From assembly GCA_016927425.1 (NCBI GenBank), contig JAFGMR010000030.1, positions 1 through 42,558 on the forward strand: a stretch of DNA of 42,558 nt, read 5' to 3'. The translations under genes and the position numbers were made by a program. The number at the start of each line of letters is the position of its first letter. Within the stretch, counting starts at the first letter, position 1. The stretch is from Methanotrichaceae archaeon. GTDB taxonomy: Archaea > Halobacteriota > Methanosarcinia > Methanotrichales > Methanotrichaceae. The notes beneath the pieces were generated by a model. That model was not told the origin of the DNA, ran no database searches, and saw only the letters and a list, made by a program, of their open reading frames with translations. Of this stretch, positions 20,463 through 27,347 are shown one piece after another.

Positions 20463-20621
20463 GTGGAGCTCATAGGGATCTGTCAAATTTGCGGACGCGC
20501 TGCAAGGATTCACACCTGCCAGCTTTGCGGCAAACATTGTTGTGAGCGTTGTTTCGTCCTCCCCTTAGGGGTATGTGTACAATGCCATGGTAGATCACCA
20601 TATCCTTCGAGGACCCTCTGA
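20463..20621 (+). CDS. Very small zinc-finger-like protein (52 residues)
   Basis: Starting at GTG 20463, the frame encodes VELIGICQICGRAARIHTCQ, then LCGKHCCERC, then a V-rich strand and CVQCHG. The Cys pairs CQIC, CQLC, CCERC and CVQC, with His residues between them, match a cross-braced zinc finger of the HIT/B-box kind, which would bind two zinc ions. I infer a nucleic-acid or protein adaptor role. The gene is easy to miss because of its length and GTG start. A T-rich tract (20637-20646) follows the stop. Confidence 0.6.
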   Translation: MELIGICQICGRAARIHTCQLCGKHCCERCFVLPLGVCVQCHGRSPYPSRTL

Positions 20622-20930
20622 TTCCCGTCCTTTGCCTTCCTTTTTTCCGGACCCTCATTGCGCGAATCGTTCACGGCTTCACAGCATAGCGATTTGTATA
20701 CCATTCACGCGTCTTGCTGCGTCGCTGTGGATGAGATCATAGCAATTGAGAGACCTCTCTTTCGACATGTTTGACGCCATTTCACAGCTATTCACAGCTG
20801 TCGCCAAACTCCCATTCGATAGCGATCGGTTCATTGTGAATACTATTCCGACTACTATATTGACTCTAATTCAAAAATAAGGTCATTCTAGTTGTTTTTA
20901 AGGCCTGAATACAGCTAAACACTCCAAGAA
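20622..20930. other. AT-rich intergenic stretch without a recognised gene
   Basis: This spacer has a T-run after the zinc-finger ORF and a pair of TTCACAGCT direct repeats near 20779-20799. Its composition is clearly less GC-rich than the flanking genes. I see no open frame with a ribosome-binding site or promoter before the TATA box at 20934. Confidence 0.5.
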
Positions 20931-20933
20931 AAC

Positions 20934-20941
20934 TTTATATA
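20934..20941 (+). promoter_or_regulatory. Strong archaeal promoter of the candidate RNA
   Basis: TTTATATA is preceded by an AGAAAAC purine-rich element in the BRE position. This is the closest match to the archaeal BRE-TATA consensus in the window, yet no open reading frame of useful length follows. Predicted initiation is near 20960-20968. Confidence 0.6.
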
Positions 20942-20963
20942 CCTTAATAACAGGGCAGTATCT

Positions 20964-21405
20964 GTCAGAACCGGATTCACATCTTGTCTGATCACACTGA
21001 GGAATTGTACGTCGAGAGGGGATGGACAACCATCGGTGCTGCAGGGATAACGTTTAGGGTAAGGCGGTAGTCCTTGCGAGGGAATCGGATTTGTCAATGC
21101 GTAGCTTGGGCTATGCAGGCGTCACCGTGAAGAAGGGATGTAGCAACGGGAGTAGCATGAAGGGGCCGGGCATCTAAGCCTGGAATCGATCCGATATACG
21201 CGTTATCCACTAGAAGGGGATGGCATAAAGGAGAGGGCCGAGTCAGTCGAGAGGCCGCCTGTAGAAGGGAACGGGCGAATAGCGATGCCCTCTCTCAACA
21301 AAGGGAGTACTGGAAGGGAGAATAATCCGGTCGGTAAGGGAGACCGGCCTGAATTAGCCCATGGAAGGGATGGCCGATGCTAGGCGAGAACGATGACGAG
21401 TTCAG
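20964..21405 (+). ncRNA. Candidate large structured RNA, family unknown
   Basis: No credible frame exists here, but the plus strand can form a nested set of helices, several with G-U pairs. They are 20964-20969/20987-20992; 21021-21025/21030-21034; a long-range 8-bp helix 21045-21052/21201-21208 (GGATAACG with CGTTATCC); 21059-21064/21072-21077; 21098-21105/21110-21117; 21166-21171/21178-21183; 21231-21238/21287-21294 enclosing 21256-21262/21271-21277; 21327-21332/21342-21347; and 21349-21355/21399-21405 enclosing 21359-21362/21370-21373. The strand is purine-rich with several GGAAGGG-type loops. Ends are approximate. RNase P and SRP RNA signatures are absent. A degraded group II intron is an alternative, since a domain V-like GAGCC/GGTTC hairpin with a short loop lies at 21524-21539. 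Folding was done by eye. Confidence 0.5.
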
Positions 21406-21426
21406 ACCCAAGCTTCAGGCCTGGTG

Positions 21427-21434
21427 TATATATC
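21427..21434 (+). promoter_or_regulatory. TATA-like element upstream of the winged-helix gene
   Basis: TATATATC lies about 190 bases before ATG 21620. If used, it would give a leader of about 165 bases. It could equally be a chance match near the 3' end of the candidate RNA. Confidence 0.3.
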
Positions 21435-21619
21435 GATATTCGAGAGAGGGATGACTGGAATGAGAGGAGCAATCAGGATCTTTTCCATTCCCTTGGACCT
21501 AGAGAGGGGTGCAAAGCTCAATCGAGCCGCTCGAGGTTCCAGGAGGGGAGAACAGTGCCTATCCACGGTCATGGCTTTGGCCGGGATCCAGCAGGCATGA
21601 GGTAATCCCGGAGGCGGTC

Positions 21620-22078
21620 ATGAAGATCCGCATAGAGATATTTGAGGATAACGGGGGGAAGTCCACCTTCGAGTTCGAGGGTGCGGAGCAGACGGCCATC
21701 AGGGAGAAGGTCATAAACTTCCTCAACGCCTCAAACGTCTTCTCCGAGCCGGAGGCTGTCCAGGCTCCACCGATTCGCGCCTGGGATGTGGGAGGAACCC
21801 TGATGGAGCGGCTATCCATCTTCATACGCTATGAGTTCCAGGACACCTGGTTCAACTCCCAGTCACTGAGGGAGCGCTACGAGACCCTCGTCGACGATAT
21901 CAAGCTCAGCACGGTATCGACCTACCTCTCCAGGATGCATCGGGACGGTTTGCTGGAGAGGAAAGGCAACAGGAACAATCGACATTATAGGCTATCGTCG
22001 AAAGTCGAAAACGGCATCTTTGAGGAGGTCCATCCACCAGCAGGGATGAGGGCGGAGATCAAGTCCGCCCATCGCTGA
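21620..22078 (+). CDS. Winged-helix DNA-binding protein
   Basis: The 152-residue product has two parts. Residues 1-45 form a beta-beta-alpha module (MKIRIEIFEDNGGKSTFEFE then an amphipathic helix). Residues about 62-135 look like a winged helix-turn-helix with recognition region LSTVSTYLSRMHRDGLLERK and a wing RKGNRNNRHYRLSS. The start ATG 21620 has GGAGGCGG immediately upstream; the open frame before it (from 21509) has no such site. It is most likely a transcription regulator. Its place right after the structured-RNA candidate and a long leader is notable. The family name is not recognised and no ligand-binding domain is obvious. Confidence 0.75.
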   Translation: MKIRIEIFEDNGGKSTFEFEGAEQTAIREKVINFLNASNVFSEPEAVQAPPIRAWDVGGTLMERLSIFIRYEFQDTWFNSQSLRERYETLVDDIKLSTVSTYLSRMHRDGLLERKGNRNNRHYRLSSKVENGIFEEVHPPAGMRAEIKSAHR

Positions 22079-22376: not shown

Positions 22377-25300
22377 TCAATTGGGAACTTGGGATTGAGA
22401 ACACTTCTTCAGCATGGCTGCCAGATCATCGATCCTCACAGGCTTGCTCAGGTAGCCGTTCATGCCGGCTTCCATGCACTTCTCTCGAACCTCCTGGGCG
22501 GAGTAAGCGGTCATTGCTACGATCCTGGGGATTCCTTTTCTGCTGGTTCTAGCTCTTATCCGGCGGGTTGCCTCGAGGCCGTCCATCTCGGGCATCTGCA
22601 GATCCATTAGGATCAGGTCGAACTCCTCCTTCTCGACCATCTCCAGTACTTCTGCACCATTGGATGCCTGGGCTGGTTTATACCCGAGCTTGTTCAGGAT
22701 CTTTACGAGCACCTTCTGGTTTACGGCATTATCCTCGGCAAGCAGTATGCGCAAGGGATATTTCAGGCCCAGTTCTGTATCTATTGAACTGCTGGGCCTC
22801 ACTTCTCTATCTATGCTTTCTCCTTTCAGGCGGAGGAGTGACTGGAATAGTTGCATGGGCTTCACAGGCTTGTTCAAGACCTCTGAGACTCCTTCGATCG
22901 TGCCCGAATAACCCAGTGATGTCAGTATCAACACCGGCAGATGACCCAGTCCCGGAAGCCTATGGATCCTCATGACAAGCTCTGAACCATCCATCTCCGG
23001 CATGCACAGGTCCAGGATGGCCATATCAAATCGCTCTTTGCGACCGATTATCCTGAGGGCATCCTCTCCCGACGTGGCCTCGATTGGGATCATTCCCCAG
23101 GAGAGCACCTGGCGATCGAGGATCTTCAGATTTGTCTGGTTATCATCTACGATCAGCACCCTCAAATCCCTCAGGCTAGTAGGCAGCACCCCTGCATCAC
23201 GGTCTACATCCGCTGCATCAACCGACCGGATTGTGAAATGGAAGATGCTTCCCTCCCCAACCCGGCTTTCCGCCCAAATTCGACCGCCCATCATCTCGAC
23301 CAGGCTCTTGCATATAGCAAGTCCAAGCCCAGTTCCGCCATATCGCTTGGTCATGGAGGAGTCGAGCTGGCGGAAGCTATGGAACAGCTGGCCGATCTGA
23401 TCCGGATCTATGCCCATGCCGGTATCCTTCACCTGGAAGTGCAGCTCATTATGACCTTCTTCGATGGCCTTCGAAGCGACGGTCAAGACCACATCTCCAT
23501 GGTCGGTGAACTTGATGGAGTTGCTGAGCAGGTTCAACAGAATCTGGCGCAACCTCGATGGATCGCCCACTACGGTTTTCACGCAAGAATCGTCTATATC
23601 GTAGATCAGCTCCAGGCCCTTCTCCGCCGCTGAGATGGAGACGAAATCGAGTGCTTCCTCCACAACCTGCCGGAGATCGAAGGGTTGCTTATCGAGGGAC
23701 ATCTTCCCGGCGTCGATCTTCGAGAAGTCGAGTATATCGTTGATAATGGACAGCAGGGCAGAGCCGCTCATCTTCATCGTATCGACATAGTCCTTCTGCT
23801 CAGCTCCTAATGGACTGTCCAACAATAGCTCCGACATGCCAATTATTGCGTTGAGAGGTGTGCGTATCTCATGGCTCATGTTCGCCAGGAACTCGGATTT
23901 GACGCGGGCTGCCTCCTCAGCCGTCTCCTTGGCCTGGATGAGTTCCTCGGAAGCGCGCTTCATCTCCGTGATATCCTCGCCGATCGACTGATACTCCAGG
24001 AGGGTCCCAGAATCGTCGAATATCCCTCGATCCGTCCACCGATACCATCGGATATCCCCTCCAGGAAGGATCTCTCGGTGCTCATATGAGACCACTGGAT
24101 TGAATGGGCATAGCGATGTAAATTCATCCCTTACGAACTCCCTATCTTCCTCGGGGATGAGCGACAAAAACGAGCTTCCGATCAGCTCTTCCCGGCTCCG
24201 GCCAAAGCTCTTGCAGTATTCGTCGTTGACATAGGTTAACGTTCCATCCGACTTGAAGCGACAGAGCAGATTGGGCATGTCCACGACGATTGCCCGGTAC
24301 TTCTCCTCGGCCTTCTCCAATGCCTCTTTGGCCCTCTTCTCCTCGGTGATATCAAGGAAAGAGGCCATCATAAGAATGGGCTCTTTGGCATCGCTGTAAA
24401 CCGTGTTCGCGGAAAGCTTGACGTCGAAGTAGGAGCCGTCCCTTTTAACTCCCGTCAACTCGCCATGATATGCCCCCGTTTCCAGCACCTCTTGCAGGAT
24501 CTCCTGGGCATTCTTCTTCTCCGTCCAGAACTCCGTGAAATGCCTTTTGAGAACTTCGCTCTCCTTATCGTATCCCAGAAGCTTGAGGAAGGAGCTGTTC
24601 ACATAGGTCAAGTAGCCGTTTATGTCCGCCATGGCAATGGCGTTTATCGAGGCCGAGATCGCCCGATCTTTGAGACGCAGATCCTCTTCAAGCGTCTTGA
24701 GATCGGATATATCGCGGACGGACTCGATTGCCCCCGCTATCTCCCCTTGAGAATCGTAAAGAATGGACGCCCTTCCGAGCAGGAATATCTGGCCCAATTT
24801 AAGGTCACGCATGTAAGCCTCGCCCATGAGAGTTCCGTCCTCCAGCCACGTGATATGCTCGTATCTCCTCTCCACCTCGTCGCGCGGTCTTAAAACGAGG
24901 TCGATCAGTATGGGCCTCCTCTTTCCATAGAAGGGAATAGCATATTCGTAGTTGCCCTTCCCGATCATATCCTTTGACTTGACCCCGGTCAGCTTCTCGA
25001 TGGATTTGTTCCAGGCGATCACCTTCCCTTCCTGGTCGATTACGAATGTCGCATCCGGAAGGAAGTCGATGATCTTGGCCAGCCGGTTTTGGAACTCCTG
25101 CAGCGCCTCCTCCGCCAATTTTCGCTTGGTGATGTCCTCGACGAATCCCAAGAACCTCGTCTCGGAGAGCTTTGTGGCAGTCACCGACCACCATCGCCTC
25201 TCCCGGTTCTTCGTCATAAACGGCACTTCGCCGGAGGAATAGCCTTCCGTCTGCACCTTTCGAAAGTGGCTGTGCCCCTCTTCCAGAGAGTCGGGAGGGA

Positions 25301-27347
25301 TCATGTCCGAGATGCTGAGCTGGAGCAGCTCTGAGATCTCGTATCCAGTTATCCTGGATGCCATGGCATTGACTTCTATGTATCTTCCTCTCTCGTCGGA
25401 GATGAAGACGCCAAACGGCGAGTTGTCGATGTAGCTGCGGTATCGCTCCTCGCTATCCTTGAGATCGCTAAGAAGCCTATCGCGCTCCACAAGAGCCCGT
25501 GCGAGCATGATGTTTCCATGGCTCAAGGAGGATATCAGGTTCGCGAACTTACTGTAGAAGTTCATGACCGCGTCGACCTTCTCCCGGCTCCACCGGGGAA
25601 CCTGGTCGAGCGCGGCTAGGTATTTGCGCTCATCGAAGCCGTATCGGCGCGCTTGATCTCGAAATAGGTCGTAGTCGGGAGTCTCGTCATCGAAGAAGAA
25701 CTGCCCAAGGAAGATATTGCCGATGTGTCTTTCGCCAACGACGATGGGCGAGGCCATATCCCACATATTGTTCTTGCAGCGGTACTGTCTGTAGGTTCCT
25801 GGAGGCACGCCTTTCGAGAGCTTTGTGTCGCTCTCAATGCAGTTTTTCAGCGTTTCAGGGCAAACCCTGTGGAACTTTGTGCAGATATCCATCCAGCCGG
25901 TGGCAACCAGGACGTTTCCGGATAGATCCAGCACCGCAGCGCCGATCCCTGTGAGCCTGTAGAAATCATCCATGAGGGATTGGATGGCTTCGGAATCGAT
26001 CATGTCGGATAGCAAAAGCTCGCCGTTCTCCACTTTCGGCTCGAGGATTGCGTCAAGCCTTCTTCTGACGCCCTTCTTTCCCTCATGCAGCGCCTCCTCT
26101 GCGAGCTTTCGGTCCGTGATATCGGAATGCGTGCCGATGACGCGCAAGGGCCTTCCGTCAGGTGTCCACTCGATAACCTTGCCGCGGTCGAGGATCCATT
26201 TGTAGGTTCCATCCTTGCATAGAACTCGGTGCTCGTTCGTGTAGACGGGCGTCTCACCGGAGAAATGACTCATAAGATCGGCGGAACACCTCTCCTTGTC
26301 GTCGGGGTGAACGCGCTTGCCCCATTCATCGAGCGTGCTTCCAACCTCATGCTCCTCATAGCCCAGCATCGCCTTCCATTGTGGCGAGAAGAAGACCTTT
26401 CCCGTCTGCACATTCCAATCCCAGACCCCATCGCCCGCCCCCTCCAGGGCGAACTGCCATCGAGCCTCGCTCTCTTTCAGGGAATTCTCCATCCTCTTTC
26501 GCTCGGTAATATCGATGAATACCGTCGAGAACTTCCCCTTTCCCGGAGAGCCCACATTTATTGCCAGGTGCTTATTCGATGGCTCGAAGTAGGTCTCAAA
26601 CGAGGCAGGCTTACCCGTCTCCGCCACCTTGCTATATATATCGAGATACGGCGCTTTGCCCAACCCATACAGCTCGGATGCAAGGGCCCCTGCTGCCTTG
26701 CTTTTGGGGATCCCCAAGATGCGTTCGTAGGCGGGATTGACGTCCAGGATTCGATAGTCGACTGCCTGTCCATTCTCATAGATTACCTCGTCGACGCAAC
26801 AACCAGCTGCCATGTGCTCGAAGATCGCCCTGAACCCCGCCTCGCTATCCCGCAGAGCCTCTTCTGATCTCCGTCGCTCGGAAAGCTCCCTCGCAAGCTC
26901 GCTCGAGAGCTTTGAAGCGAGGCGGGCTTGCCCCCCCTGCCACTGCAATGCATTGGCCATCTTGACCTTAATCATCGCCCGGATCTCGGCCTCGAGCTCT
27001 AGACGATCGGCCGGCATTGCGAGAAACGCATCGGCGCCGGTTTCAAGCGCTCTGATCCGGCTTTCCTGGTCCGTCTTCGGGCCGGTTAAAATGACCACAG
27101 GGATATGACCCAGGAGGTCGTCGTCCTTCAGCCTTCGGCATACTTCGAACCCATCGCTGGCACCCATGGAGATATCTAGGAGGATTACGTTCGGATCCTC
27201 ATTGAGCGCCATCTGTATGCCATCTTGGCAGCTTTTAGCGGTCGAGATGCTTGCATCGGGAAATGCTTCCAAAATTTCGGCCCTCAAGGCCAATAGGCTC
27301 TCCTCGTTCTCGTCGATGGCAAGTATCTTCAGAGCTATTCTATCCAT
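22377..27347 (-). CDS. Soluble hybrid histidine kinase REC-PAS-PAS-PocR-PAS4-HisKA-HATPase-REC-REC
   Basis: The 1656-residue protein lacks membrane segments. In order: receiver 1 (about 6-125, phospho-acceptor Asp58); PAS domains near 165-285 and 292-414; a PocR sensory domain (about 440-610) with Cys489, Cys496, Cys503 and Cys524; four PAS domains near 633-745, 750-885, 893-1003 and 1012-1130; HisKA with SHEIRTPLN (His1159); HATPase with the N box LLNLLSNSIKF and DTGMG; then receivers 2 (Asp1446) and 3 (Asp1582). It should sense cytoplasmic cues, possibly redox or small ligands, and pass phosphate along an internal relay. Receiver 1 has MP where the conserved KP lysine belongs (position 111), so it may be non-canonical. 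No separate output regulator adjoins it. ATG 27347 follows AGGAGGAGG and directly abuts the stop of a 56-residue ORF. Confidence 0.95.
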   Translation of the reverse strand: MDRIALKILAIDENEESLLALRAEILEAFPDASISTAKSCQDGIQMALNEDPNVILLDISMGASDGFEVCRRLKDDDLLGHIPVVILTGPKTDQESRIRALETGADAFLAMPADRLELEAEIRAMIKVKMANALQWQGGQARLASKLSSELARELSERRRSEEALRDSEAGFRAIFEHMAAGCCVDEVIYENGQAVDYRILDVNPAYERILGIPKSKAAGALASELYGLGKAPYLDIYSKVAETGKPASFETYFEPSNKHLAINVGSPGKGKFSTVFIDITERKRMENSLKESEARWQFALEGAGDGVWDWNVQTGKVFFSPQWKAMLGYEEHEVGSTLDEWGKRVHPDDKERCSADLMSHFSGETPVYTNEHRVLCKDGTYKWILDRGKVIEWTPDGRPLRVIGTHSDITDRKLAEEALHEGKKGVRRRLDAILEPKVENGELLLSDMIDSEAIQSLMDDFYRLTGIGAAVLDLSGNVLVATGWMDICTKFHRVCPETLKNCIESDTKLSKGVPPGTYRQYRCKNNMWDMASPIVVGERHIGNIFLGQFFFDDETPDYDLFRDQARRYGFDERKYLAALDQVPRWSREKVDAVMNFYSKFANLISSLSHGNIMLARALVERDRLLSDLKDSEERYRSYIDNSPFGVFISDERGRYIEVNAMASRITGYEISELLQLSISDMIPPDSLEEGHSHFRKVQTEGYSSGEVPFMTKNRERRWWSVTATKLSETRFLGFVEDITKRKLAEEALQEFQNRLAKIIDFLPDATFVIDQEGKVIAWNKSIEKLTGVKSKDMIGKGNYEYAIPFYGKRRPILIDLVLRPRDEVERRYEHITWLEDGTLMGEAYMRDLKLGQIFLLGRASILYDSQGEIAGAIESVRDISDLKTLEEDLRLKDRAISASINAIAMADINGYLTYVNSSFLKLLGYDKESEVLKRHFTEFWTEKKNAQEILQEVLETGAYHGELTGVKRDGSYFDVKLSANTVYSDAKEPILMMASFLDITEEKRAKEALEKAEEKYRAIVVDMPNLLCRFKSDGTLTYVNDEYCKSFGRSREELIGSSFLSLIPEEDREFVRDEFTSLCPFNPVVSYEHREILPGGDIRWYRWTDRGIFDDSGTLLEYQSIGEDITEMKRASEELIQAKETAEEAARVKSEFLANMSHEIRTPLNAIIGMSELLLDSPLGAEQKDYVDTMKMSGSALLSIINDILDFSKIDAGKMSLDKQPFDLRQVVEEALDFVSISAAEKGLELIYDIDDSCVKTVVGDPSRLRQILLNLLSNSIKFTDHGDVVLTVASKAIEEGHNELHFQVKDTGMGIDPDQIGQLFHSFRQLDSSMTKRYGGTGLGLAICKSLVEMMGGRIWAESRVGEGSIFHFTIRSVDAADVDRDAGVLPTSLRDLRVLIVDDNQTNLKILDRQVLSWGMIPIEATSGEDALRIIGRKERFDMAILDLCMPEMDGSELVMRIHRLPGLGHLPVLILTSLGYSGTIEGVSEVLNKPVKPMQLFQSLLRLKGESIDREVRPSSSIDTELGLKYPLRILLAEDNAVNQKVLVKILNKLGYKPAQASNGAEVLEMVEKEEFDLILMDLQMPEMDGLEATRRIRARTSRKGIPRIVAMTAYSAQEVREKCMEAGMNGYLSKPVRIDDLAAMLKKCSQSQVPN

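Follow-up and report, generated by a model that had tools for sequence, protein, structure and literature searches.

The locus and its predicted leader

In the 42,558-nt stretch of a Methanotrichaceae archaeon genome analysed here (contig JAFGMR010000030.1; hereafter the window), a BRE-TATA promoter is followed by a predicted non-coding leader, RNA A, a small ORF and the gene of a putative winged-helix regulator (Table 1). The promoter is the sole match to RNAAANNTTTATATA in the whole window with at most one mismatch allowed (0.06 expected), in agreement with the original prediction of a strong promoter in front of a large structured RNA, and the little coding capacity ascribed to the region was likewise found, since no plus-strand ORF of at least 50 aa lies in 20953-21392. 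The start of RNA A was inferred to be about 25 nt past the TATA box, and its 3' limit is approximate.

Folding of the plus strand of 20934-21434 was better than that of its shuffles (z -2.27; 1 of 100 equally good) and that of the minus strand was not (z -0.22), while complementary 8-mers were mildly in excess (5 vs 1.3 in shuffles; 4/200). Of the many helices originally proposed, several hairpins are real. The two named long-range helices, for which no close relative exists for comparison, are unsupported: the 8-bp helix 21045-21052/21201-21208 (GGATAACG/CGTTATCC) and the 7-bp helix 21349-21355/21399-21405 (CTGAATT/AGTTCAG, one G-U) are complementary strings only and are absent from the minimum-energy fold. 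A scan of the region against Rfam gave no match at the gathering threshold, and at E<=10 just two human lncRNA models on the opposite strand. The absence of an intron match speaks against the degraded group II intron that had been considered, and RNase P RNA (RF00373), rightly discounted before, was unmatched in the region and is located on another contig of the same genome (G000:C78:9487).

Downstream of A, the small ORF ends mostly 9-35 nt 5' of the regulator gene; it lies between A and this gene in several genera and was not recognised in genus g10. T runs of at least five are rare between promoter and gene (0.10/kb, compared to 3.22/kb upstream), and a second promoter is absent from this interval in most loci. 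From the few T runs, the general lack of a second promoter and the closeness of the small ORF to the gene, we infer that A is probably the leader of the small-ORF/regulator operon, more likely than a free-standing RNA, and the regulator gene probably shares its transcript. Structure-based matches (AlphaFold2/Foldseek, best E 1.2e-3) predict that the regulator, P0001, is a winged-helix protein; no family in Pfam or NCBIfam matched it above threshold. The regulator gene is adjoined by a very large minus-strand ORF (22377-27347), read from its sequence as a multi-PAS hybrid histidine kinase with two receiver domains. On the other side, 5' of the promoter, lies a small Cys-rich, zinc-finger-like ORF (20463-20621, MELIGICQICGRAARIHTCQLCGKHCCERCF), and a similar ORF was found upstream in two related loci (L003, L067).

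Table 1. Predicted features of the RNA A locus and of the loci of the antisense small RNAs
Feature	Position	Strand	Basis
BRE-TATA promoter of RNA A (AGAAAACTTTATATA)	20927..20941	+	unique window match; GAAAAGTTTATATACC-like box in the corresponding position of 40 loci
RNA A, predicted non-coding leader with sites antisense to small RNA B	20959..21440 (~480 nt)	+	duplex and AAGGG counts vs shuffles
Hairpin presenting GAGAGGGGAU	21005..21029	+	MFE; duplex with B tail -21.7
Site antisense to B tail (GAAGGGATG)	21130..21145	+	-19.2 kcal/mol
Best site, antisense to B loop (CGGGAGTAGCATGAAGGGGC)	21147..21166	+	-34.9 kcal/mol, one bulge
Site antisense to B tail/loop (AGAAGGGGATGGCA)	21210..21227	+	-23.7 (tail); -27.5 (loop, 21213-21238)
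Hairpin CGCCTGT-AGAAGGGA-ACGGGCG, site within loop	21256..21277	+	duplex -22.5
Double site AAAGGGAGTACTGGAAGGGA	21299..21319	+	-24.6
Hairpin with TAAGGGA in loop (GGTCGGT-AAGGGAG-ACCGGCC)	21327..21349	+	MFE
Hairpin/site CCAT-GGAAGGG-ATGG(CC)	21359..21376	+	-24.6 with B tail
Small ORF MRGAIRIFSIPLDLERGAKL... (46 aa), conserved MRGHIKLFT(L/I)xxDL	21460..21600	+	strict pattern in 19 of 40 loci
Winged-helix regulator gene (P0001)	21620..22078	+	present in most family genomes
B, predicted small RNA (this genome)	contig 48, 16790-16916	+	
B2, paralogue of B	G016:C1:1194718-1194836 (L223; also L224-L228)	-	in 6 of 6 thermophilic-genus genomes searched

RNA A across the Methanotrichaceae

When 61 genomes were searched with the DNA, only the promoter and the 5' end were matched, in three relatives. 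In each of these, an AAGGG-rich intergenic region comes next, followed by a gene homologous to that of the winged-helix protein. With this protein as an anchor 44 further family loci were fetched, and in 43 of the 45 loci (window included) an AAGGG cluster that ends at the promoter lies directly 5' of the regulator gene. The exceptions are two second gene copies (L066, L072), which are without A and have a different upstream region, and eight outgroup loci showed scattered AAGGG matches at most.

The relatives of RNA A are about 400-980 nt long, diverge rapidly and carry 4-16 AAGGG sites each, many of them in hairpin loops. AAGGG was the most enriched 5-mer in 40 promoter-anchored A regions (334 occurrences vs 33 expected from the flanks and, after dinucleotide shuffling, 79 +- 8), a rank that predates the discovery of the small RNA B described below, and most of the highest-ranking 8-mers are contained in the sequence antisense to B. 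The sites were unpaired more than in shuffles (0.67 vs 0.53, p 3e-10) and occupied an 8-nt hairpin loop 33 times, compared to 7.5 in flank-swapped controls (best register), whereas TCCCT, the complement that would pair with the motif, was depleted (1 vs 8.9). In the window copy 8 AAGGG were counted against 1.7 in shuffles, with sites spanning 21133-21365. AAGGG clusters alone are common by chance, and therefore only clusters with extended anti-B matches were counted.

What the relatives retain is limited to the sites, the promoter and a 5' element. The hairpin that presents GAGAGGGGAU in the window copy recurs in related RNAs on a different stem (UUCGUC-UGAGGGGAUG-GAUGAA; by-eye alignment of about 25 loci). 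A second conserved 5' element (20958-20999, ...CACAUCCUGUCUGAUCACA...) occurs in most genera and is not explained by B. Within-genus alignment of whole folds gave no convincing global structure because the divergence is too great. Conservation thus lies in multiple short sites that are antisense to another, separately encoded small RNA, and not in one large tertiary fold. The suggestion of an undescribed archaeal RNA was borne out, in that Rfam has no match and both the position and the repeated sites are conserved across the whole family; the original prediction did not include the eight AAGGG sites, the operon that follows A or the antisense small RNA at another locus of the genome.

A second locus encoding a predicted small RNA

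A pattern taken from the recurrent module of A (AAGGG...GCAATGAAGGG) led to a second locus in the family genomes, just 3' of a Trm1-like gene and on the same strand, whose G-rich strand (AGAAGGGATGGCACGAGATGCGAAAGGGAGTAGCAATGAAGGGGGT) presents the different sites of A in a row. On the C-rich strand a conserved BRE/TATA (CCTAAAACTTAATAAAGG) precedes a stem-loop by about 50-60 nt, and the predicted RNA of about 100 nt, B, consists of a 5' hairpin in which compensatory changes are numerous, this stem-loop and a tail (AUCCCUUCU, with CCCUUCU). The main stem (GGCACGAGG.../...CUCGUGCC) of 8-13 bp closes a loop of roughly 30 nt (AUUACCCCCUUCAUUGCUACUCCC), and both loop and tail present C-rich segments that are the exact antisense of sites in A. 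In the aligned sequences the hairpins covary and the loop is nearly invariant, its variation being confined to the first two bases, and the 24-nt loop is almost constant over 11 genera. The wobble cells favor the C-rich strand (56 G-U vs 19 A.C), although on this strand one stem pair of the g10 B is A.C. Thus B has, as far as can be read from sequence, the features of a trans-acting small RNA, namely its own promoter, stable covarying hairpins and a single-stranded seed. Assignment of B to rRNA or SRP RNA was rejected for want of an Rfam match, and a coding function of the locus was excluded by insertions between genera.

With a covariance model of B, a single high-scoring copy was recovered from 48 of the 50 family genomes and none from 150 genomes of other members of the class. 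Likewise, the exact 24-nt core occurred in 40 of 84,980 species genomes; their titles (Methanothrix, Methanosaeta, Methanocrinis and unplaced Methanosarcinales or archaeal bins) fit the Methanotrichaceae. The exact 20-nt core occurred in none of the viral contigs. Species of Methanothrix rank among the main acetoclastic methanogens. A paralogue found in the thermophilic genus g6, B2, has the loop core UCAUUGCUACUCCCUU in common with B but an entirely different stem (GGCAAAAGUCG/CGACUUUUGCC), and it has a canonical TATA box on the same strand, with a T run of 4-5 in most copies. Further B-like paralogues, several per genome, were found in genus g10 (L140, L141, L145), with compensatory stems (GGUCAGGAGAG/CUCUCCUGGCC) and a CCCCCUUCAUUGC seed.

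Complementarity between A and B

The A regions contain 309 12-mers antisense to B, compared to 0.6 in shuffled A, at a density of 11.1/kb relative to 0.014/kb in the flanks, while B reversed, complemented or in sense orientation shared no 12-mer with A. Among the loci, matches of 13-20 nt occur. In the window, A forms 7 non-overlapping duplex sites of -18 kcal/mol or below with the B of its own genome (mean 2.9 and maximum 5 in 60 shuffles), and none was formed by five other stretches of the window; the longest exact match of this copy is just 11 nt, with 10 attained in five shuffles. Divergence of the sites was 0.079 compared to 0.239 elsewhere in A (42 pairs); the sites evolve three times slower than the rest, and selection acts on them. 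Moreover, in genus g10, where B has changed in the tail (AACCCUUCAU) and in the second seed (CUCCCUUACG), the sites in A carry letters that match the changed B (GAAGGGAT to GAAGGGTT; AAAGGGA to TAAGGGA), with the limit that these co-changes share ancestry on one branch and represent few independent events. A thus carries extended complementarity to the loop and seed of a small RNA encoded in trans, as a sponge would, and pairing of A with B is well supported by these comparisons.

Proposed function of the leader

We consider it likely that A is a multi-site mRNA leader that pairs with the trans-encoded B and probably acts as its sponge. If both RNAs are transcribed and meet in the cell as predicted, the long 5' leader of the small-ORF/winged-helix-regulator mRNA, with 8 core sites here and 4-16 in relatives, would bind several B molecules per transcript, many of them by loop-loop contacts because the sites of A lie in hairpin loops and the matching segments of B in a loop. 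The most probable effect would be titration of B by A, and occupancy by B could in turn decide what becomes of the downstream mRNA, which would couple the transcription of the regulator operon to the activity of B, whichever the direction of the regulation. The sponge-leader reading is preferred because the sites are more numerous and more widely spread than would be required to repress a single start codon. The wider proposal of a family-wide RNA-RNA titration circuit, in which a near-invariant B with lineage-specific paralogues and three C-rich seeds is restrained by a multi-site leader, A, dedicated to it, whose transcription would also yield the winged-helix regulator, is put forward tentatively, as plausible but somewhat short of probable.

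A serious rival, possible though in our estimate rather unlikely, is pure cis control, in which B riboregulates the regulator operon through its leader, affecting how stable the mRNA is, how it is processed or whether transcripts are completed, and titration of B plays no physiological part. The location of A directly 5' of the regulator gene in nearly all loci, the interval without a U-run and usually without a second promoter, the small ORF whose end usually lies at most a few dozen nt 5' of the gene, and the different upstream region of the gene copies that have no A are all consistent with this explanation. However, the sites are more numerous than a single target needs and mostly far from the start codon, by hundreds of nt, such that a direct effect on translation is not obvious, and by eye the ribosome-binding site of the regulator is not a conserved B site.

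A protein sponge in the manner of CsrB or RsmZ was favored before the antisense locus B was recognised. In its present form, in which a protein binds the AAGGG loops of A and the B locus is transcribed in the G-rich direction as a second, smaller sponge, this reading appears improbable. Although AAGGG in hairpin loops with variable stems recalls the design of CsrB, where GGA lies in loops or in single-stranded stretches (PMC8383071), the BRE/TATA and wobble pattern of B favor the C-rich strand, on which the TATA box and T run of B2 are also found, the 13-20 nt matches exceed a protein motif, and the changes shared by A and B follow the pairing. That A is a large structured RNA standing on its own, a ribozyme or what is left of a group II intron is very improbable and largely refuted by our data: the folding z-scores (-2.3 in the window, mean -4.0 over 20 loci) would fit it, but Rfam has no match, the length varies more than twofold across genera, the constant parts are the sites, promoter and 5' element only, and the named long-range helices are unsupported. 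Finally, that A is functionless G-rich intergenic DNA with a chance likeness to B, or relics of duplicated B, is scarcely credible and, at the level of selection, refuted by sequence comparison, since despite the G-richness of A and the short exact match of the window copy, composition-matched shuffles do not reproduce the signal and the sites evolve more slowly than their surroundings.

Relation to known regulatory RNAs

The bacterial sponges ChiZ, IspZ, chb mRNA, SroC, AgvB and 3'ETS-leuZ are known to have one or few sites each. A differs from them in being archaeal, in its 4-16 sites per transcript in hairpin loops and in its family-wide conservation, and it is predicted from sequence. Like A, these sponges are RNAs, sometimes mRNA leaders, that pair with the seed of a trans-acting small RNA (chb mRNA with ChiX), and ChiZ and IspZ are derived from 5'-UTRs in E. 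coli (PMC8383071). CsrB contains about 18 short motif sites (PMC8383071), and CsrB/CsrC and RsmY/Z, like A, repeat a short G-rich motif that lies in hairpin loops or is single-stranded. In contrast to these RNAs, the predicted partner of A is an RNA, no CsrA is implied, as pairing with B explains the sites, and AAGGG is extended to 10-20 nt of complementarity. In eukaryotes, CDR1as is a circular RNA sponge of miR-7 with many copies of one seed-complementary site. It resembles A in carrying many such copies on one long RNA, whereas A would be a linear prokaryotic leader with a larger small RNA as partner and no Argonaute implied.

Among archaea, sRNA41, sRNA154 and sRNA162 of Methanosarcina mazei and sRNA132 of Haloferax are intergenic small RNAs that act by pairing, as predicted for B, and sRNA41 masks several ribosome-binding sites (PMC5867862). 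In the same review, which covers regulatory RNAs of archaea and in which the terms 'sponge', 'decoy' and 'titrat' do not occur (PMC5867862), none of the four is described with a multi-site partner RNA. The B model matched only Methanotrichaceae among 200 genomes of the class searched. The literature searched contained no archaeal multi-site sponge of a small RNA, which is weak evidence given that many subscription papers lay outside the search, and no paper centred on a Methanothrix small RNA.

Together, A and B resemble a control circuit of two RNAs that has not been described before. Should A titrate B, a multi-site RNA sponge exists in archaea; otherwise, A is an archaeal mRNA leader with unusually many sites for one small RNA, and in either case two RNA families are missing from Rfam. 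The near-constant loop of B and a fast-evolving A that keeps only its antisense sites offer directly testable sequences. Besides A, a possible target of B is a gene for an Hfq/LSm-like RNA chaperone (L139), the relatives of which are too diverse to show conservation. Its ORF (G000:C12:70871-71131, minus strand; ..VYKHAIYHL..) contains AAGGGATGATACAAGGGACGG in its first codons and AAGGG clusters at its start.
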